A stretch of DNA of 64,000 nt from Sulfitobacter maritimus (lineage in GTDB: Bacteria; Pseudomonadota; Alphaproteobacteria; Rhodobacterales; Rhodobacteraceae). Positions within the stretch are counted from its first letter, which is position 1; each line of letters begins with the position of its first letter. Position numbers and translations under genes: made by a program. The stretch is from the NCBI RefSeq assembly GCF_013346665.1, contig NZ_JABVBB010000038.1, positions 496,001 to 560,000 of the forward strand, read 5' to 3'. Shown one piece after another: positions 14,414 to 54,190 of this stretch. The notes below the pieces were generated by a model. That model ran no database searches. It was not told the DNA's origin and worked only from the letters and a program-made list of their open reading frames with translations.

Positions 14414-15165
14414 GTGGCGTCCGGGTAGGCGCGTTGCAGCCACTGCATCTGGGTCAGCATATGGCCCAGATGTTCGCTGTGCCGCGCGCCGCTTTTCCCG
14501 CCCTTATGGGCAAAGTCATCGTCGGGTTTGGTCAGGGTTGCAGCCGCCAGCGTGTCGCCAACCAGTTGGTCATAGCCCGCACGCAGACTGGCCGGATCTG
14601 GCGCGATGCCCGCCTCGACCATGGCCGCGTCGACGTCATCGCCAAGGAACATCTCACCGACATAGGGCCAGAGCAAGTCTAGTGCCGCCTGCATCCTGCG
14701 GTGGCTTTCATCGGTCCCGTCACCCAACCCGATCACTGTGTCCGAGGAGCGCTCAAGGTGGTAGGTCACTTCCTTGGCTGATTTCTCGGCGATGGCGGCG
14801 ATCTCTTTGTCACTGGAATCGATCAGCGCGGTCAGTTGCGCCAGATGCCACGCGTCGAACAGGAACTGTCGCATCATGGTCTGGCCGAAGTCGCCATTGG
14901 GCTGTTCGACCAGCAGCACATTGCGGAAATCCCAGACATCGCGGTGAAAAGCCAGCTTGTCGGCATCGCGCCCCGCGCCCTCGACCTCACCCGCCAGTCC
15001 CAGCCAAAGCTGCGTCTGGCCGATCAGATCAAGCGCTACATTCGCCAGCGCGATGTCTTCTTCCAACACCGGGGCCACGCCGCACCATTCCGAAACGCGG
15101 TGGCCGAGTACCAGCGCGTTGTCGCCCATACGGCAGAGGAATTCGAATTTGGGATCGGTGCTCAC
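14407..15165 (-). CDS. paaC: Phenylacetyl-CoA epoxidase structural subunit PaaC
   Basis: A 252-residue, ferritin-like but catalytically inactive partner of PaaA in the PaaABC(E) monooxygenase. Typical segments are RMGDNALVLGHRVSEWCG, EEDIALANVALDLIGQ and YHLERSSDTVIGLGDGT. It appears to start at GTG within the GTGA overlap with paaB, which implies translational coupling. Confidence 0.94.
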   Translation of the reverse strand: MSTDPKFEFLCRMGDNALVLGHRVSEWCGVAPVLEEDIALANVALDLIGQTQLWLGLAGEVEGAGRDADKLAFHRDVWDFRNVLLVEQPNGDFGQTMMRQFLFDAWHLAQLTALIDSSDKEIAAIAEKSAKEVTYHLERSSDTVIGLGDGTDESHRRMQAALDLLWPYVGEMFLGDDVDAAMVEAGIAPDPASLRAGYDQLVGDTLAAATLTKPDDDFAHKGGKSGARHSEHLGHMLTQMQWLQRAYPDATW

Positions 15166-15506
15166 ATCGCCCCCACTTCGTCGGGAATGTCAAAGAAGGT
15201 CGGATGGCGGTAGACCTTGTCATTAGCGGGCTCGTAAAGCGCGCCTTTTTCCTCGGGGGAGGAGGCCGCGATGGCGCTGGCTTGAACTGCCCAGATGCTT
15301 ACACCCTCATTGCGGCGGGTATAGACGTCGCGAGCGTTCTTGATCGCCATCTCCGCATCCGCCGCATGGAGGCTGCCGACGTGACGGTGGCTCAACCCGT
15401 GCTGGCCGCGGATGAAGATTTCCCACAGGGGCCATTCGGTGCTGCGCGCCTTTCCGTGGGGGGCCGCTTCGGTGCCGTCATATTCACTGGATTCAGGGCT
15501 GCTCAT
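15162..15506 (-). CDS. paaB: Phenylacetyl-CoA epoxidase subunit PaaB
   Basis: A small, 114-residue subunit that bridges PaaAC dimers. The family signature is clear: WEIFIRGQHGLSHRHVGS near residue 28, NARDVYTRRNEGVSIWAV, and the DKVYRHPTFFDIPDE end. The N-terminal 20 residues are a variable polar lead. The start is placed 5 bp after the paaA stop; a longer in-frame reading would run back into paaA and is rejected. Confidence 0.94.
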   Translation of the reverse strand: MSSPESSEYDGTEAAPHGKARSTEWPLWEIFIRGQHGLSHRHVGSLHAADAEMAIKNARDVYTRRNEGVSIWAVQASAIAASSPEEKGALYEPANDKVYRHPTFFDIPDEVGAM

Positions 15507-15511
15507 GTCGC

Positions 15512-16504
15512 TTACTCCGCTGCCATTTGTCTGCTGCGCTTCTTCTCGGCGTGGGCCAGAAGCCCCTCGCGCACCCAACGGCCTTCGTCCCAGGCCTTGT
15601 TGCGGGCCGCGAGCCGTTCGGTGTTGCAGGGGCCGTTGCCCTTGAGCACCTGAAAGAACTCTTCCCAATCCGGCTCGGCGAAATCGTAGTGGCCGGTCTC
15701 CTCGTTGAACTTAAGCGTCTCGTCGGGGATCGTGAGGCCAAGGTATTCCGCCTGCGGCACCGTCTCGTCGACGAACTTCTGGCGCAGCTCATCATTGGTG
15801 TTCATCTTGATCTTCCACGCCATCGACTGCGCCGAATGGACCGAATCCTTGTCTGAGGGGCCGAACATCATCAGCGCCGGGAACCAGAAGCGGTTGAGCG
15901 CGTCCTGCGCCATCTTGCGCTGCGCGGGGGTGCCGTTGGCCATCTTCATCATGATGTCGAAGCCTTGGCGCTGGTGGAAGGATTCCTCCTTACAGATACG
16001 CACCATGGCGCGAGCGTAGGGGCCGTAAGAGGTCCGTTGCAGCGGCACCTGGTTCATGATCGCGGCACCATCGACCAGCCAGCCCACAGCGCCCATATCG
16101 GCCCATGTCAGGGTCGGGTAGTTGAAGATCGAGGAATACTTCATCTTCCCGGACAGCAGGTCACGGGTCATCTGGTCGCGGGTCACACCGAGCGTCTCGG
16201 CCGCGCAGTAGAGGTAGAGACCGTGACCGGCTTCGTCCTGTACTTTTGCGAGAAGGATCGCCTTGCGCTCCAACGTCGGTGCGCGCGTGATCCAGTTGCC
16301 TTCGGGCAGCTGGCCGACGATCTCGCTATGGGCGTGCTGGCCAATCTGGCGGATCAGGTTCTTACGGTAGCCCTCGGGCATCCAGTCCTTAGGCTCGATC
16401 TTGCCGCCCGCGTCGATGCGTTCCTGAAAGGCGCGCTCTTCGGGGTCCATCTCGTCAAGGGATTTGATGCCCTTGCCGGTGGATTTGATCATCTGTGCAT
16501 ACAT
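15512..16504 (-). CDS. paaA: Phenylacetyl-CoA epoxidase catalytic subunit PaaA
   Basis: The 330-residue, di-iron carboxylate oxygenase epoxidises the ring of phenylacetyl-CoA. Carboxylate/histidine ligand segments are visible in [12 protein letters not shown] and [15 protein letters not shown]. Substrate-side segments such as [16 protein letters not shown] match the family. Length is normal. It sits between pcaF (28 bp upstream) and paaB (5 bp downstream). Confidence 0.96.
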
Positions 16505-20686: not shown

Positions 20687-20782
20687 GGGCGGACCTCCTG
20701 TTGCCAAACCCTTAGCCGGGGCAGCGCCCTGCCTCAAGGGGATTTGCCTTGCCAATCATGCGGGGGGCATCTACCTCTGGCC

Positions 20783-20878
20783 TCACCTCGGGGGGCCTTA
20801 GGGCTGAGATGTGCGTGTTGTGCGGACCCGTTGAACCTGAACCGGTTAACACCGGCGGAGGGAAGGTCAGGACAGACA
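20783..20878 (+). ncRNA. TPP riboswitch (THI element)
   Basis: The conserved thiamin pyrophosphate aptamer is recognisable. GGGGGCC is followed by GGGCTGAGAT (P2/P3 side), then ACCCGTTGAACCTGAACCGG, TTAACACCGG and GGAGGGAAGGT closing P1. The spacing to thiB is short (about 36 nt). Between them CCTTT (20890-20894) can pair with AAAGG (20902-20906) inside the Shine-Dalgarno region. TPP binding probably controls translation initiation of thiB by hiding this site. Confidence 0.93.
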
Positions 20879-20914
20879 TCCACCTTTTACCTTTCGCCGC
20901 AAAAGGAGGATGCA

Positions 20915-24582: not shown

Positions 24583-24662
24583 GGTGATCTCCTTTAGGTT
24601 CAGACACGTCCACCCAAGGCGATCACGCGCACAGACCGAGCAGGTGCCCTGCCTGTGTTCGC

Positions 24663-24795
24663 ATTCTCTTCCATCCGGACTGTGACCGTCGGCTCTGGAA
24701 TCGCACCAGATCTGCTGACACCTCGCGAAAGGCCGCTCGCGGGCTTGCGGGGGACCGCTTACCGCCGGTGGGGAATTTCACCCCGCCCTGAGAAT
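24663..24795 (-). ncRNA. FMN riboswitch (RFN element)
   Basis: Read on the minus strand, the element begins ATTCTCAGGGCGGGGTGAAA, continues with CCCCACCGGCGGTAAGCGG, then AGCCCGCGAGCG, GTCAGCAGATCTGGTG, CCAGAGCCGACGGT and ends AGTCCGGATGGAAGAGAAT. These are the conserved blocks of the six-helix FMN aptamer. It lies 80 nt upstream of ribH2 and is oriented toward it, so FMN should reduce expression of that gene. Confidence 0.96.
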
Positions 24796-24855
24796 GATCG
24801 CAGGTTGCCAAGATGCCGGACCCTCTGCAATACCAAAAAAAGAAGGAACGGCCTG

Positions 24856-40944: not shown

Positions 40945-41375
40945 GCCGATTGGAGGGCAAATGCCTTTGCGGGGCGGTGACGCTGAGTTTCGAGCCATTG
41001 AAGGATGCGCTTGGGGCCTGCCATTGCGAGATGTGCCGCCGCTGGACCGGGAGCGCCTTTCTGGAGATCGACGCGAAGCCGGGTAGCCTGACCCATGAAG
41101 GCCCGGTCAAGAGCTATGCCTCGTCCGACTGGGCCGAGCGGGCGTGGTGTGACGCCTGTGGCAGCACGCTTTGGTATCACCTGACGCTGCCGGGGCATGA
41201 TTATTACAGCATTAGCGCCGGGCTGGTCGATGACGCCGGCGGGCTAGAGCTGAAGACCGAGATTTATATCGATGTGAAGCCCGCAGGCTATGCCTTTGCC
41301 GGGGAGCACGAAACCAAAACCAAGGCCGAAGTCGAAGCAGGATTTGCGGCATTTGTGGAAGGAACCAAGCCATGA
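40941..41375 (+). CDS. GFA family protein (CENP-V/GFA zinc fold), copy 2
   Basis: 144 residues with the same architecture as the gene before it: GKCLCGAVTLSFE, ACHCEMCRRWTGS and WCDACGSTLWYH. The two proteins are clearly paralogous but far from identical, so the duplication is old. ATGA overlaps at both ends place it strictly between copy 1 and gltB. The conserved zinc ligands in both copies argue for retained function. Confidence 0.88.
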   Translation: MSRLEGKCLCGAVTLSFEPLKDALGACHCEMCRRWTGSAFLEIDAKPGSLTHEGPVKSYASSDWAERAWCDACGSTLWYHLTLPGHDYYSISAGLVDDAGGLELKTEIYIDVKPAGYAFAGEHETKTKAEVEAGFAAFVEGTKP

Positions 41376-44300
41376 CCAAATATGATGACGCCTGGGTAGC
41401 CCGCGAAGAAGCCAAACGCGCGATGATGGCCGAGAAGGGCATGTATAGCTTTGAAGAGGAACATTCCTCTTGCGGTGTCGGCTTGGTGGTGAACGTCAAT
41501 GGCGAAAAGACCCGCGAAGTTGTGCTGAACGGGATCAACGCGTTGAAAGCGATTTGGCACCGGGGGGCGGTGGATGCGGATGGGATGACCGGCGATGGCG
41601 CAGGCATCCATGTGCAGATTCCGGTGCCGTTTTTCTACGATCAGGTGCGCCGCACCGGGCATACGCCGCGCGAAGATGAGATGATTGCCGTGGGGCAGGT
41701 GTTCTTGCCGCGCACGAATTTCGCCGCGCAGGAGACTTGCCGGACCATCGTTGAGACCGAAGTCCTGCGCATGGGCTACTACATCTATGGCTGGCGTCAT
41801 GTGCCGGTGGATATTTCCGTGCTGGGCGAGAAAGCCAATGCGACGCGGCCTGAGATTGAGCAGATTTTGATCTCGAACGCTAAGGGCGTGGATGAAGAAA
41901 CCTTTGAGCGGGAGCTTTATGTGATCCGCCGCCGGATCGAAAAAGCTGCCATCGCGGCGCAGGTGCCGCAGATGTACATCGCGTCGATGTCCTGCCGCAG
42001 CATTATCTACAAGGGCATGATGCTGGCCGAACAGGTGGCGGAGTTCTATCCCGATCTGAAAGACGACAAGTTCATCAGCGCCTTTGCGATTTATCACCAG
42101 CGCTATTCCACCAACACTTTCCCGCAGTGGTGGCTGGCGCAGCCCTTCCGCATGTTGGCGCATAATGGCGAGATTAACACGCTCAAGGGCAACACCAACT
42201 GGATGAAGAGCCATGAGATCCGCATGGCGTCTGCGACCTTTGGCGAGATGGCCGAGGATATTAAGCCGATCGTGGCGGCGGGGTCGAGCGACTCGGCGGC
42301 GCTGGATTCGGTGTTTGAGGTTTTGGTGCGCGCGGGGCGTTCGGCGCCGATGGCGAAGACGATGCTGGTGCCGGAGTCTTGGTCCAAGCTGGCGGTGGAA
42401 TTGCCGCAGGCGTGGCGCGATATGTATTCCTATTGCAACTCGGTTATGGAGCCTTGGGACGGGCCAGCGGCCTTGGCGATGACCGACGGGCGTTGGGTCT
42501 GCGCGGGGCTGGACCGGAACGGCTTGCGCCCGATGCGCTATGTTGTGACCTCGGACGGGATGCTGATTGCGGGCTCGGAAGCCGGGATGGTGCCGCTGGA
42601 TGAATCGCGGGTTGTGGCCAAGGGCGCGCTTGGGCCGGGGCAGATGATCGCTGTCGATATGGACGCGGGAAAGCTGTTCTACGATGCGGAGATCAAGGAC
42701 CGGCTGGCGGCCAATCAGCCCTTTGGCGAATGGGTCAGCAAGATCCACGAGTTGGACGATGTGCTGAGCGCGGTGACGGAAAAGCCGCTGTTTGAGGGCA
42801 ATGAGTTGCGCCGGCGTCAGGTGGCGGCGGGCTATACGATTGAGGAGTTGGAGCAAATCCTCGCGCCGATGGCGGAGGACGGCAAAGAGACGCTGGCGAG
42901 CATGGGGGATGACACGCCTTCGGCGGTCTTGAGCGGGCAGTACCGGCCTTTGAGCCATTTCTTCCGGCAGAACTTTAGCCAGGTGACCAACCCGCCGATT
43001 GATAGCTTGCGCGAATTCCGGGTGATGAGCCTGAAGACGCGGTTCGGGAACCTGAAAAACGTGCTTGATGAAGACAGCAGCCAAACTGAGATCCTGGTGC
43101 TCGACAGTCCTTTTGTGGGCAACGCGCAGTTTGAAGAGCTGATGGCGCAGTTCAAGGCGCTTACGGTGACGATTGACTGCAGCTTTGAGCGGGGCAATGG
43201 CAACCTGAGCGCTGCTTTGGCGCGGATCCGGGCTGAGGCAGAGGATGCGGTGCGCTCCGGCGCGGGGCATCTGGTGCTGACGGATCAGTATAGCGGCGAA
43301 GACAAGGTTGCGATGCCGATGATTTTGGCCACCAGCGCGGTGCATAGCCATCTGGTGCGCAAGGGACTGCGGACCTTTACCTCGCTTAACGTGCGCGCGG
43401 CGGAATGTGTCGATCCGCATTACTTTGCGGTGCTGGTGGGCTGCGGTGCGACCGTGGTGAACGCTTATTTGGCCGAGGATTCCTTGGCCGATCGGATCGG
43501 GCGTGGGCTGCTGGATATGTCGCTGACCGAAGCGGTGCAGAAGTACCGTGAGGCGATTGATCAGGGTCTGCTCAAGATCATGGCGAAGATGGGGATTTCG
43601 GTGATCTCGTCTTATCGCGGCGGGTTGAACTTTGAGGCGGTGGGCCTGTCCCGCGCCATGTGTGCGGAGTATTTCCCCGGCATGACCAGCCGGATCAGCG
43701 GCATCGGTGTCGTTGGTATCCAGCGCAAGGCTGAGGAAGTTCATGCCCGTGGTTGGTTGGGCGATGGCGTCGTCATGCCCATCGGCGGTTTCTACAAGCA
43801 GCGCAAGACGGGTGAGAAACACGCGTGGGAGGCGAGCAGCATGCATATGTTGCAGATGGCCTGCAACAAAGCGTCTTACCAGATGTGGCAGCAATACTCG
43901 AAGAAAATGCAGAGCAATCCGCCGATCCATCTGCGCGATCTGCTCGACATCAAGCCGCGGGGCAATCCGGTGCCGTTGGAGGAGGTGGAGAGCATCACCT
44001 CGATCCGCAAGCGTTTCGTGACGCCGGGGATGTCATTGGGGGCGCTGAGCCCGGAGGCGCATAAGACGCTGAACGTGGCGATGAACCGCATCGGGGCGAA
44101 GTCCGACAGCGGCGAGGGTGGCGAAGATCCGGCGCATTTCGTGCCGGAGGCCAATGGGGACAATCCGTCAGCCAAGATCAAACAGGTGGCCTCTGGGCGC
44201 TTTGGCGTGACGGCGGAGTATCTGAACCAATGCGAAGAGTTGGAGATCAAGGTCGCGCAGGGCGCCAAGCCCGGTGAGGGCGGCCAGCTTCCGGGGATGA

Positions 44301-45904
44301 AGGTCACCGACCTGATCGCGCGGTTGCGGCATTCGACCAAGGGCGTGACGCTGATCTCGCCCCCGCCGCATCACGACATCTATTCGATCGAAGACCTCGC
44401 GCAGCTGATCTATGACCTCAAGCAGATCAACCCGCGCTGTAAGGTGACGGTGAAACTGGTGGCGTCTTCGGGCGTTGGGACGATTGCTGCGGGCGTGGCC
44501 AAGGCCAAGGCCGACATCATCCTGATTTCCGGCCATAACGGTGGCACCGGGGCCTCACCTGCGACTTCGATCAAATATGCGGGTCTGCCGTGGGAGATGG
44601 GCCTGACCGAGGCGCATCAGGTTCTGTCGATGAACAACCTGCGCGACCGGGTGACATTGCGCACGGATGGGGGCCTGCGGACCGGGCGTGACATCGTCAT
44701 GGCCGCGATGATGGGGGCCGAGGAATATGGCATCGGCACCGCTGCGCTGATCGCGATGGGTTGCATCATGGTGCGCCAGTGTCAGTCGAACACCTGTCCG
44801 GTGGGGGTGTGTACGCAGGACGAAGCCCTGCGTGGCAAGTTCACCGGCAATGCAGATAAGGTGGTGAACCTCATTACCTTCTACGCCACTGAGGTGCGCG
44901 AGATTTTGGCCAGCATCGGGGCGCGGAGCCTTGATGAAGTCATTGGCCGTGCGGACCTGTTGACGCAGGTGAGCCGGGGTTCGGCGCATTTGGATGATCT
45001 GGACCTCAACCCACTGTTGATCACCGTCGATGGGGCGCATGAAAACGTCTATGACCGCGATAAGCCGCGTCAGGCGGTGCTCGATACGTTGGATGCGCAG
45101 ATCGTGCGGGATGCGGCGCGGTTCTTGGAAGATGGCGAGAAGATGCAGCTGTCCTATGCGGTGCAGAACACGCATCGGACGGTGGGGACGCGGGTGTCGA
45201 GCCATATCGTCAAGCGATTCGGGATGCGCAATTCCTTGCAGCCGGATCACCTGACGGTGAAACTGACTGGGAGTGCCGGGCAGTCTTTAGGTGCCTTTGC
45301 GGCACCGGGGCTGAAGCTTGAAGTTTCGGGCGATGCCAATGACTATGTGGGCAAGGGCCTGTCGGGCGGTACGATTGTGGTGCGGCCTTCGATGGCGAGC
45401 CCGGTGGTGGCGTCGGAGAATACGATCATTGGCAACACGGTGCTTTACGGTGCGACGGCGGGGTATCTTTTTGCCGCTGGCCGGGCGGGTGAGCGCTTTG
45501 CGGTGCGTAACTCCGGCGCGCATGTGGTGATCGAAGGCTGCGGCAGCAACGGGTGTGAATATATGACCGGCGGTGTGGCGGTGATCCTTGGGGAAATCGG
45601 GGCGAATTTCGCGGCCGGGATGACCGGGGGGATGGCTTATCTCTATGACCCCGATGGGCTGGCGCCAAAGCTGATGAATGCCGAGACCATTGTGACCTGC
45701 CCGGTGGCGGTGGATCATTGGATGGCGCAGTTGCACGGGCTGTTGGAGCGCCATCTGGCCGAGACCGGCAGCCGCAAGGCGGCGGATATCCTGCAGCATT
45801 GGGAGAGCGAGAAGCACAACTTCCTGCAGGTATGCCCGAAGGAAATGTTGGTGCATCTGCCTGCGCCGTTGAGTGTTGAAGAGACGGCTGTTCCGGCGGA
45901 GTGA
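41372..45904 (+). CDS. gltB: Glutamate synthase (NADPH) large subunit
   Basis: The 1510-residue alpha subunit makes glutamate from glutamine and 2-oxoglutarate. The class II amidotransferase nucleophile is Cys34 in EEHSSCGVGLVVN, so a 33-residue propeptide should be removed. The FMN/synthase domain has HKTLNVAMNRIGAKSDSGEG, GHNGGTGASPATS and the 3Fe-4S segment CIMVRQCQSNTCPVGVC. A C-terminal GXGXG beta-helix follows (about 1270-1460). A structured repeat starts 3 bp after its stop. Confidence 0.97.
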   Translation: MTKYDDAWVAREEAKRAMMAEKGMYSFEEEHSSCGVGLVVNVNGEKTREVVLNGINALKAIWHRGAVDADGMTGDGAGIHVQIPVPFFYDQVRRTGHTPREDEMIAVGQVFLPRTNFAAQETCRTIVETEVLRMGYYIYGWRHVPVDISVLGEKANATRPEIEQILISNAKGVDEETFERELYVIRRRIEKAAIAAQVPQMYIASMSCRSIIYKGMMLAEQVAEFYPDLKDDKFISAFAIYHQRYSTNTFPQWWLAQPFRMLAHNGEINTLKGNTNWMKSHEIRMASATFGEMAEDIKPIVAAGSSDSAALDSVFEVLVRAGRSAPMAKTMLVPESWSKLAVELPQAWRDMYSYCNSVMEPWDGPAALAMTDGRWVCAGLDRNGLRPMRYVVTSDGMLIAGSEAGMVPLDESRVVAKGALGPGQMIAVDMDAGKLFYDAEIKDRLAANQPFGEWVSKIHELDDVLSAVTEKPLFEGNELRRRQVAAGYTIEELEQILAPMAEDGKETLASMGDDTPSAVLSGQYRPLSHFFRQNFSQVTNPPIDSLREFRVMSLKTRFGNLKNVLDEDSSQTEILVLDSPFVGNAQFEELMAQFKALTVTIDCSFERGNGNLSAALARIRAEAEDAVRSGAGHLVLTDQYSGEDKVAMPMILATSAVHSHLVRKGLRTFTSLNVRAAECVDPHYFAVLVGCGATVVNAYLAEDSLADRIGRGLLDMSLTEAVQKYREAIDQGLLKIMAKMGISVISSYRGGLNFEAVGLSRAMCAEYFPGMTSRISGIGVVGIQRKAEEVHARGWLGDGVVMPIGGFYKQRKTGEKHAWEASSMHMLQMACNKASYQMWQQYSKKMQSNPPIHLRDLLDIKPRGNPVPLEEVESITSIRKRFVTPGMSLGALSPEAHKTLNVAMNRIGAKSDSGEGGEDPAHFVPEANGDNPSAKIKQVASGRFGVTAEYLNQCEELEIKVAQGAKPGEGGQLPGMKVTDLIARLRHSTKGVTLISPPPHHDIYSIEDLAQLIYDLKQINPRCKVTVKLVASSGVGTIAAGVAKAKADIILISGHNGGTGASPATSIKYAGLPWEMGLTEAHQVLSMNNLRDRVTLRTDGGLRTGRDIVMAAMMGAEEYGIGTAALIAMGCIMVRQCQSNTCPVGVCTQDEALRGKFTGNADKVVNLITFYATEVREILASIGARSLDEVIGRADLLTQVSRGSAHLDDLDLNPLLITVDGAHENVYDRDKPRQAVLDTLDAQIVRDAARFLEDGEKMQLSYAVQNTHRTVGTRVSSHIVKRFGMRNSLQPDHLTVKLTGSAGQSLGAFAAPGLKLEVSGDANDYVGKGLSGGTIVVRPSMASPVVASENTIIGNTVLYGATAGYLFAAGRAGERFAVRNSGAHVVIEGCGSNGCEYMTGGVAVILGEIGANFAAGMTGGMAYLYDPDGLAPKLMNAETIVTCPVAVDHWMAQLHGLLERHLAETGSRKAADILQHWESEKHNFLQVCPKEMLVHLPAPLSVEETAVPAE

Positions 45905-45907
45905 CGA

Positions 45908-46072
45908 GGGCGATCGCCTGCCCGTGGGGTGGCGATTGCGACGGTCCTTCGTGCCACTTTATAGATCGGCCTTGGCGTGACTTCGCGGAGTTGCGTCAAG
46001 GCTCACCAAATCGCCAGCCCGCCGGGACGGGCAGGCGATGGCCCGGCGCCTGCGGCTTGATTCCGGGCTGGG
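45908..46072 (+). repeat. Dispersed structured repeat, copy U1 (short type)
   Basis: The left arm GGGCGATCGCCTGCCCG (45908-45924) and right arm CGGGCAGGCGATGGCCC (46028-46044) pair with one mismatch. The inner arms TGGCGATT and AATCGCCA (46009-46016) pair perfectly. The core is GTGCCACTTTATAGATCGG. A tail GCCCGGCGCCTGCGGCTTG...CCGGGC can form a further hairpin. It begins 3 bp after the gltB stop in a 464-bp region that holds no gene, so it may act as an mRNA 3' structure. Confidence 0.85.
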
Positions 46073-46105
46073 ATGGCCGAATTAGCGTGTTTATTTGAGT
46101 TCTTA

Positions 46106-46318
46106 GGGCGTTCCGCTGTCCGTGAGGTGGCGATCAAAACGGCTCTTCGTGCCACTTTATAGATCGGTTTTGGCGTGACTTTGCGGAGTTGCGGCAAGGC
46201 TCACCAAATCGCCAGCCCGGCCGCACCAAAGGTGCGCTTAAACTAAATCGGCACGCCTCTGGCGTGACGGACGGGCAGGCGATGGCCCGGCGCTTGCGGC
46301 TTGATGCCGGGCTGGGGT
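46106..46318 (+). repeat. Dispersed structured repeat, copy U2 (long type)
   Basis: A direct copy of U1, offset by 198 bp. The core and right half are nearly identical (CTCACCAAATCGCCAGCCC is shared exactly), but the left arm is degenerate. It carries an extra module at 46220-46271 that is absent from U1. The module has two small hairpins: GCACC-AAA-GGTGC (46223-46235) and CACGCC-TCT-GGCGTG (46252-46266). The tail ends about 50 bp before the SGNH hydrolase start. Confidence 0.85.
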
Positions 46319-46368
46319 GGTATTTAAAAACGTCTGGGCTACTTCTGCCTCTCCACAGGAGGCGGGTC

Positions 46369-47070
46369 ATGCGCATAATTTTAGCGTCATTATTGATAGT
46401 CACAGGCCTCGTGGCCTGCACAGACACCGCGCCACGCGGCGGTGGTGACATTCTCGTCCTCGGCGATTCCATCATGGCTTGGAACGGCAGCGCTGCGATT
46501 CCCGATGTCATCGCCAGCACAACGGGCCGCAGCGTCACCAGCCGCGCCGTGCCGGGGGCGCAGTTTGACAATGGCTCGACCATCGCCGCTGCCGTTGGCT
46601 TCGACATTCAACAACAGTTCCCCGGCGGGCGCTGGAACTGGGTGCTGGTCAATGGGGGCGCCAATGATCTGAGTGCGGATTGCGGCTGCGGCGCTTGCGG
46701 GCAGTCTGTCAACGCGCTGATCAGCCCCGATGGGCAGGGCAGCATCCCGGCCTTCCTGCGCAAACTACGTGCAGAAACCGGGGCGCAGGTGATGTGGATG
46801 GGATACTATGCAGGCTCTAACACAGGCTCTTTCGCCGGGTGCCGCGATGATTTGGTTGAGATCGAACGTCGCATTGCAGGCTTCGCGGCCCGCACCCCCG
46901 GCGTGCATTTCGTTGATTCCGAAGACGTGATTGACCGCAACGACCGAGGACTGTTCGCGCGCGATAACGTGCATCCCTCCAAACGAGGCTCGGCGCGGAT
47001 TGGTGCCTATCTGGCCCAAGAGATCACAGCGCGTGAGAAACGTTCACAAACGCCTGCCAGCAGCCTATAG
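46369..47070 (+). CDS. SGNH/GDSL-family hydrolase, predicted lipoprotein
   Basis: The 233-residue protein has a lipobox signal (LLIVTGLVAC, lipidated Cys17). The SGNH blocks are all present: Ser in VLGDSIMAW, Asn in NGGANDLS, and Asp/His in DNVHPSKRG. An unusual Cys cluster DCGCGACGQ follows block III. Such enzymes hydrolyse ester bonds of lipids or of O-acetylated glycans in the periplasm. SD AGGAGG precedes the ATG at 46369; the frame upstream reads through the repeat and is not coding. mtgA follows 7 bp later. Confidence 0.85.
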   Translation: MRIILASLLIVTGLVACTDTAPRGGGDILVLGDSIMAWNGSAAIPDVIASTTGRSVTSRAVPGAQFDNGSTIAAAVGFDIQQQFPGGRWNWVLVNGGANDLSADCGCGACGQSVNALISPDGQGSIPAFLRKLRAETGAQVMWMGYYAGSNTGSFAGCRDDLVEIERRIAGFAARTPGVHFVDSEDVIDRNDRGLFARDNVHPSKRGSARIGAYLAQEITAREKRSQTPASSL

Positions 47071-53553: not shown

Positions 53554-53668
53554 GAGATGCCCCCCTGTTCTGAACTTGCTAAGCAATGGCGGGTTTGCGA
53601 AGGGAGGACAAGGCGGGTTTGGCAGGTTGCGCAGACGGTCTGGAATACCCGACCTTTAAGAATACCAC

Positions 53669-53871
53669 CCGGCCCGGAATGAAGCCGCAGGCGTCGGGCC
53701 ATCGCCTGCCTGCCATGCCAACGTGCGCCAGAATATGATGGGCGCACCTTTGGTACGACCGGGGAGGCGATTAGATGGGGTTAGGTGCGACATTACGAAC
53801 GCACATTATAAATGAACCATAAAGTGGCACGATGCGACGTCAGATCGCCAACCTGCGGACAGGTCCTGACC
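53669..53871 (-). repeat. Dispersed structured repeat, copy U3 (long type)
   Basis: Read on the minus strand it has the same order as U2: a degenerate left arm ending GGTTGGCGATC, core CGTGCCACTTTATGG, inner arm AATCGCC, the extra module with GTACC-AAA-GGTGC (53744-53756), right arm CAGGCAGGCGATGGCCC (53696-53712), and the tail hairpin region down to about 53669. It occupies the upstream gap of the DMT transporter. Confidence 0.8.
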
Positions 53872-53925
53872 TTAGATAACTAGATCACGAACTGGCAGAC
53901 AAGCGGTTCCCCGGTTCCATCTGCC

Positions 53926-54088
53926 ACCAGCCCGGAATCAAGCCGCAGGCGCCGGGCCATCGCCTGCCCGCCCCCCGTGTAGGCGATTTGGTGATGCTGG
54001 GTATAACCTCGCAAGCGCACATCAATGCTGAACTATAAAGTGGTAGTCAGGGACCTCAGATCGCCGACCCGCGGGCAGGCGATGGCCC
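53926..54088 (-). repeat. Dispersed structured repeat, copy U4 (short type, perfect 17-bp terminal arms)
   Basis: The arms GGGCCATCGCCTGCCCG (53954-53970) and CGGGCAGGCGATGGCCC (54072-54088) are perfect 17-bp inverted repeats. The inner arms GGCGAT/ATCGCC pair, the core is ACCACTTTATAG, and the tail GGCGCCTGCGGCTTGATTCC is shared with U1. It is tandem with U3 in the same orientation. Together they fill most of the 687-bp gene-free region 53554-54240; 54089-54190 shows nothing recognisable. Confidence 0.85.
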
Positions 54089-54190
54089 TCAAGCCACTAA
54101 TCCATGGGTTGATAGAGATGCAGTGCTACGACACCGACCGTCGCTGAGTTTGGTGTTGCGCCGCGGGCGCTCGCCTTCCCCCCCCTCAAC

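Follow-up and report, generated by a model that had tools for sequence, protein, structure and literature searches.

The intergenic region downstream of gltB in Sulfitobacter maritimus contains two copies of a non-coding, structured repeat that is dispersed in the genome. There are about 40 copies in the 3.79 Mb genome. They display one conserved fold, which consists of two stems (P1 and P2), CTTTAT and CCAAA loops and a tail hairpin, and they are located at gene 3′ ends in both orientations. The repeats probably constitute a lineage-restricted family of intergenic sequences of the Rhodobacteraceae that is REP/BIME- and ERIC-like in its working; probably it is an old non-autonomous element that at present serves, at most, as a 3′-end hairpin. 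An earlier note on this DNA had described the family as dispersed, structured and intergenic, and this is borne out by many intergenic copies with compensating stem changes, both in the S. maritimus genome and in related genomes.

The window analyzed is a stretch of 64,000 nt (positions 496001–560000 of contig C32 of genome G000). An open reading frame of 1510 aa at positions 41372–45904 (plus strand), which we take to be gltB, the gene for the large subunit of glutamate synthase, precedes the repeats. Copy 1 (U1) is at 45907–46076 and copy 2 (U2) at 46105–46320, both on the plus strand. U1 is 170 nt in length, has no insert and matches the covariance model with 179.7 bits; U2 carries an insert, is 216 nt long and scores 151.5 bits. 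The next gene, at 46369–47070 (plus strand), presumably encodes an SGNH/GDSL-type lipoprotein, judging from its sequence.

The P1 arms of U1 are at positions 45908–45924 (5′ arm) and 46028–46044 (3′ arm), as placed by an alignment made from sequence alone and a pairing test; the same approach puts the arms of the second stem, P2, at 45926–45936 and 46010–46020. The conserved, unpaired core CCACTTTATAG is found at 45954–45964 by motif matches and alignment, and an inner hairpin of variable sequence, predicted by RNA folding, at 45970–46001. The tail hairpin P4 (GCCCGG..TTGATT..CCGGGC) encompasses positions 46041–46068 and, through its first strand, shares bases with the P1 3′ arm. All of these features are on the plus strand, as are the two-hairpin insert of U2 (46222–46270), recognized by its match to the insert of another copy, and the U2 tail hairpin (46285–46312), recognized by the tail hairpin pattern.

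Much of the layout given in the earlier note is reproduced here. The two copies are direct, with a repeat of 122 nt that is 85% identical at the reported spacing of 198; U1 begins 2–3 nt after the gltB stop at 45904; and the copies share no reading frame, as U1 has one open plus-strand frame and U2 has a stop codon in that frame. The tail block of 52 nt (94% identical) is spaced at 244, and this is due to an extra stretch of about 46 nt in U2, which comprises two small hairpins. Terminal inverted repeats had been assigned to each copy; they are clear in U1, where the arms 45908–45925 and 46027–46044 are 94% complementary, but the 5′ arm of U2 is degenerate. The tail hairpin is present as described, but it is outside the long stem and a part of it can pair in two ways. 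The RNA fold of positions 45903–46085 has −99.7 kcal/mol (z −4.3), equaled by none of 200 shuffles, and that of 46105–46330 has a z of −3.3, with one of 200 shuffles as good.

The core CCACTTTATAG has four matches in the window, two in U1 and U2 and two beyond them, one of the latter with one change; 0.21 matches are expected from shuffles. The third copy, without insert, is at 53922–54089 on the minus strand (DNA search and covariance model), and the fourth, which is diverged and has a shortened insert, is at 53664–53873 on the same strand (covariance model). Thus the family does recur in the window, as had been noted, but the two distant sites reported for it are one tandem pair. A DNA search of the whole genome gives 45 matches at E 0.01, some of which are parts of one copy. 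The covariance model gives 48 matches; 43 extend over its full length, two of them at less than 35 bits. This model, R1, was built from 21 copies on an RNAalifold fold of the genome's own copies, a fold that differs from the P1/P2 fold tested later.

The tail hairpin pattern is found 28 times in the genome (control, 0), and 26 of these matches are inside full-length model matches; of the other two, one is by a fragment at a contig end and one is by a full copy. The tail hairpin was therefore rejected as a free-standing REP, i.e. a 20–40 nt palindrome. The insert was likewise rejected as a separate repeat, since all 12 of its matches in five 400-kb stretches are inside elements. In one copy from another genus (L088:1501–1713) a different insert is found at the joint of the P2 and P1 3′ arms, and this joint may thus be a general place for inserts.

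Tandem copies in the genome are mostly direct, as judged by eye, with one inverted pair at C28:247232/247470. Contig C25 (positions 14763–15792 of G000; loci L037 and L057) carries five direct tandem copies in about 1 kb, in which forms with and without the two-hairpin insert alternate; of the four spacers, two resemble each other. The alternation and the like spacers point to local duplication as a way in which such arrays grow. Fragments that consist of the right end only adjoin full copies at C32:165079–165130 and C14:685289–685323 of the same genome and are possibly short forms.

The distribution of the family was followed in four samples in which scoring was limited to the best 18, 70, 14 and 14 candidates of each genome (family, genus, order and class, respectively), so that copy counts are lower bounds; filters were stricter in the family, order and class samples than in the genus sample. 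Model matches are present in 53 of 149 genomes and 52 of 148 genera of the family-wide sample of Rhodobacteraceae and in 93 of 196 genomes (47 of 87 genera) of the order-wide sample. Under the strict filters of the class-wide sample only two of 190 genomes have a match, and both belong to the genus of the window. Within that genus 19 of 40 genomes show matches, eight of them with 19 to 43 scored copies, and 21 show none. The exact tail pattern is found in 86 stretches of named genomes, and those listed include Sulfitobacter delicatus, S. dubius, Roseovarius, Roseivivax, Litoreibacter, Tropicimonas and Phaeobacter; the 80 listed are, to judge from their titles, all presumably Rhodobacterales. 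The phage records searched contain no match to the repeat. Among plasmid records 96 have a match, and the best three, from Sulfitobacter faviae, cover about half of the query and have no annotated feature beneath the match.

The fold was tested on alignment A4, which has 40 copies from 29 genera, 11 of them from the genus of the window, aligned by sequence alone. These are 40 of the 49 copies of alignment A3; the nine left out comprise two insert-bearing copies, one that carries a different insert, weak copies and second copies of a locus. Helix names, the choice of columns and the P3 hairpin are our own assignments. P1 joins both ends of the body with 17 pairs and 93.3% of its cells are paired, and P2 continues inside P1 with nine pairs and 94.4% of cells paired. 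Together with the small tail stem, 93.2% of cells are paired and there are 104 two-sided changes, compared with 38.1 in shuffles; none of 500 shuffles reaches 104, and slid controls, with the partner shifted by one to three columns, give 6–26. Columns that belong to P1 only covary as well (two-sided changes: 4-142, 8; 7-139, 10; 14-131, 15), as do the tail stems (23 compared with 6.6 in shuffles).

Rival local hairpins formed from the same arms also covary (48 compared with 19.7 in shuffles), and this is due to the resemblance of the four arms to one another. Columns 130 and 129 have one unpaired copy each in P1 versus 12 and 5 locally, whereas column 136 fits the local hairpin better (no unpaired copy with column 109, five with column 9 in P1). 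On this column by column choice the long stems P1 and P2 are taken as the main fold, with the local fold as an alternative. Conserved positions outside of the stems are CACTTTAT, CACCAAA and TTGATT, and the motifs conserved in loops or unpaired stretches are CTTTAT, CCAAA and TTGATT. In a set of 182 copies, kept from 288 after removal of near-duplicates, mean identity to the consensus is 0.92–0.93 in the P1 3′ arm and the tail and 0.86 in the 5′ arm, and it falls to 0.55–0.59 in the two inner variable parts.

P1 displays 102 G.T pairs compared with 44 A.C mismatches (63 copies versus 19). Simple mutation bias does not account for this excess, since the unpaired columns lean the other way, with G to A (0.120) above C to T (0.074). 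The excess is carried by the P1 5′ arm, where C to T stands at 0.052 and G to A at 0.022; the 3′ arm (0.018 and 0.021, respectively) does not show it, and P2 (21 to 19) and P4 (12 to 15) have no G.T excess. The P1 values are a hint, not proof, of selection on a plus-strand RNA. A genuine structured RNA that has a function of its own, such as a small RNA or a two-state switch present in many copies, would be in keeping with the P1 excess that runs against the trend of the unpaired columns, with covariation over 29 genera, with the conserved unpaired motifs and with the mutual exclusion of P1 and P4 pairing. Such an RNA is nevertheless unlikely: the excess comes from one arm of one stem, the copies are many, patchy within one genus and random in orientation to genes, and Rfam has no credible family for the repeat at the gathering cut-off or at E 5. 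The sole Rfam match, a plant microRNA model at E 0.1, is far under its cut-off and was rejected.

The segment GCNCGG serves both as the first strand of the tail hairpin P4 and as the last bases of the P1 3′ arm. In 23 of the 40 sequences it is matched by the 5′ arm as well as by the tail, in one of four sets, i.e. GGGC/GCCCGG/CCGGGC (14 sequences), GTGC/GCACGG/CCGTGC (4), GCGC/GCGCGG/CCGCGC (3) and GGTC/GACCGG/CCGGTC (2). Thus GCNCGG is largely kept complementary to two mutually exclusive partners, the 5′ arm and the tail. The other 17 sequences are outside of the four sets, some by a shift in the alignment and some by real mismatch. In copy 1 the fold with the complete P1 is 6 kcal/mol better than the fold with P4.

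The order guide, hairpin, end in the tail resembles that of IS200/IS605 right ends and is a lead. The repeat could on this account be a purely selfish non-autonomous element that, like IS200/IS605 ends or REPs, moved in single-stranded form; the inner GCNCGG would then act as a guide, with CCGNGC (right end) and CGNGC (left end) as its pairing partners. The 23 full sets, the same order of guide, hairpin and end, and the patchy copy number in the genus, with 21 of 40 genomes devoid of copies, are in favor of this; the 17 sequences outside of the sets speak against it, as do the searches for traces of transposition given below, and it is regarded as a possibility of the second rank, well behind the reading as an old repeat family now largely in place. 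A more speculative proposal, and rather an improbable one, is a three-strand switch in which the inner GCNCGG would pair with the left end and then with the right end; the exchange might drive copying or swapping in place, on single-stranded DNA or RNA, so that sites would be fixed and inner domains replaced.

Gene context was read for the 30 best of the 48 copies in the S. maritimus genome and for loci from other genomes, with a simple gene caller that was trained on the genome of the window and applied to other genera. Of 87 loci, 83 have a copy (L059, L062, L080 and L097 have no usable one) and 78 have a gene call on both sides, five more being dropped for lack of a call on one side. In the element's own frame 33 of the 78 copies are in convergent gaps and two in divergent gaps; tandem gaps hold 18 copies in sense and 25 in antisense orientation. 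In five background stretches of 400 kb, 34.6% of intergenic bases belong to divergent gaps, which are 18.9% of all gaps, and 12.6% to convergent gaps, which are 14.2% of all gaps. The copies therefore are located at the 3′ ends of genes and are underrepresented in promoter gaps. Orientation in tandem gaps is unbiased (18 versus 25, p 0.36); p values are too small throughout because the copies are related and some are tandem neighbors.

The suggestion of a 3′ mRNA structure made in the earlier note agrees with this location; the presence of either orientation and the absence of a U-tract on either side of 28 of 29 of the genome's own copies are against it, and such a structure is a possible role. 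Intrinsic terminators were considered, as there are strong hairpins right behind stop codons. Among the 29 own copies, however, one has TTTT within about 22 nt of the end on the 3′ side, and likewise one on the 5′ side, and separate T-run hairpins adjoin some elements; the terminator assignment was rejected on the missing U-tract and is very unlikely. A GC-rich hairpin with a TTCG loop is located between the gltB stop and the element in genomes G173, G151 and G186 (L121, L123 and L124) and is absent from the window.

In the reading preferred here, transcription from either side would produce a strong hairpin, which may protect or insulate the 3′ end, as position and fold suggest. A 3′-end role of this kind would fit the tolerance of copies between convergent genes and their scarcity in promoter gaps. 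An RNA with conserved loop sequences would not be expected in random orientation, and this counts against the explanation, as do the covariation of the rival local hairpins, their better fit at column 136 and the confinement of the G.T excess to the P1 5′ arm.

At the gltB 3′ end, 30 loci of the genus were read (39 genomes have a match) and element-free sites were judged by eye. Five species have the full element, with two copies in the genome of the window only and one copy in each of the other four. Two species, G151 and G186, have a short form that consists of the outer stem and the tail, and these short forms fit a deletion between similar arms. The remaining 23 loci are without an element, and in G176 and G156 the gltB stop is immediately followed by the next gene. 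The gltB copies of G157 and G171 are the nearest to both U1 and U2 (0.81–0.90), and those of G173 and G177 are at 0.66–0.73. The single copies in the other species and the common nearest relatives of U1 and U2 fit a local duplication, and from this comparison the two look like a tandem duplication of one copy.

In 400 kb of five genomes there are five comparable sites, and four of the five are common to three or more species: gltB in five, the 248 kb site in four with a tail remnant in G171, the 341 kb site in all four comparable genomes, and the 134 kb site with four full copies and one short form. The copy at G173:414524 is present in one of four comparable genomes and has no clean empty site, and three further copies are without comparable flanks. 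The G173 site and the 248 kb site in G171 were rejected as clean insertions, since they look like decay with possible remnants. The inner part has a mean identity of 0.75 at shared sites (35 pairs) compared with 0.71 between paralogs, with flanks at 76–95%. Eight of the 35 pairs, at 0.80–0.99, look like plain orthologs and the rest are near the paralog level, and at one site the insert is present in one species and absent in another. By these identities inner domains look as if they were often exchanged while the sites stay shared.

No transposition event was caught. Inspection by eye of the few loci that allow the test revealed no target duplication, and no conserved flank was seen by eye at the copies examined. 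Neither a long autonomous version nor related transposase ends were noticed among the matches of the model, which is not suited to long versions. The Y1_Tnp domain (PF01797) exceeds the cut-off in 12 of the 40 genomes of the genus sample; of the eight copy-rich genomes G155 alone is among these, with a weak match in G173 and none in the other six. Seven of the eight copy-rich genomes thus give no support to a link to RAYT transposases. The earlier note had considered a REP/BIME-like element; a REP in the strict sense, a short palindrome moved by RAYT, does not agree with the six genomes that are without a Y1 match. The MITE-like character proposed there is upheld in part: terminal inverted arms and a patchy distribution are present, but the few testable loci show neither target duplication nor a clean empty site, and no partner enzyme was found. 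These results also weaken the proposal of a selfish single-stranded DNA element. For the preferred reading, the family would have spread as an old non-autonomous element, most copies would now be inherited in place, a copy could lose its inner part by deletion between the repeated arms, and inner domains may be exchanged.

The repeat shares features with several known families. ERIC (RU-1, 127 bp) and RU-2 (168 bp) of enterobacteria are described as MITE-like (PMC2759123). The present repeat is similar in size (100–200 nt), is structured and non-coding and has many intergenic copies, a likeness of kind that is by description rather than by sequence; it differs in lineage and in a tail hairpin outside of the long stem that covaries with it. 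REP and BIME sequences with their RAYT transposases serve as a second comparison system (PMC2817692, PMC3733652). The present repeat agrees with that system in its intergenic position at 3′ ends, its few copies in divergent gaps and its tail hairpin with a bulge; it differs in length (170 nt versus 20–40), in the lack of a Y1 match in most copy-rich genomes and in tandem copies that are mostly direct. REPs are located in intergenic regions at gene 3′ ends and are rare in divergent gaps. MITEs have terminal inverted arms and no coding capacity and are dispersed, and the repeat resembles them in all three respects, but no target duplication was seen and no related transposase ends were noticed.

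RIME and ABC of rhizobia and the intergenic repeats of Caulobacter (CIR) are alphaproteobacterial intergenic repeats with palindromic parts, and CIR are linked to CcrM. The present repeat is alphaproteobacterial, has palindromic parts and has GANTC in its tail, a likeness by description, not by sequence; in the class sample its model matches only the genus of the window. The conserved TTGATTCC holds the GANTC methylation site, which raises the question of a CcrM-linked repeat like CIR. GANTC is present in 75 of the 106 copies with a recognizable tail (123 were looked at). Its N, however, is no more variable than its neighbors (consensus in 96 of 106), and among the nine positions it is the A that varies most, with the consensus letter in 88 of 106 copies. 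The substitution pattern thus does not single out the site, and a CcrM link is considered very unlikely.

A literature search, mostly of freely readable papers and thus a weak negative, found no description of the family in Rhodobacteraceae. It is a genuine structured intergenic repeat family of the REP/BIME and ERIC kind without an Rfam model, and it lacks the RAYT and short-palindrome features that were tested. The repeats are abundant in the intergenic DNA of numerous genomes of a large bacterial family that is mostly marine. As its fold is backed by covariation it can be modeled, annotated and tested, and its fixed sites with seemingly exchanged contents are a good place to study persistence without a visible transposase.

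Two other structured RNAs are found in the window, an FMN riboswitch (RFN element) at positions 24659–24799 on the minus strand (120 bits) and a TPP riboswitch at 20779–20880 on the plus strand (70 bits).
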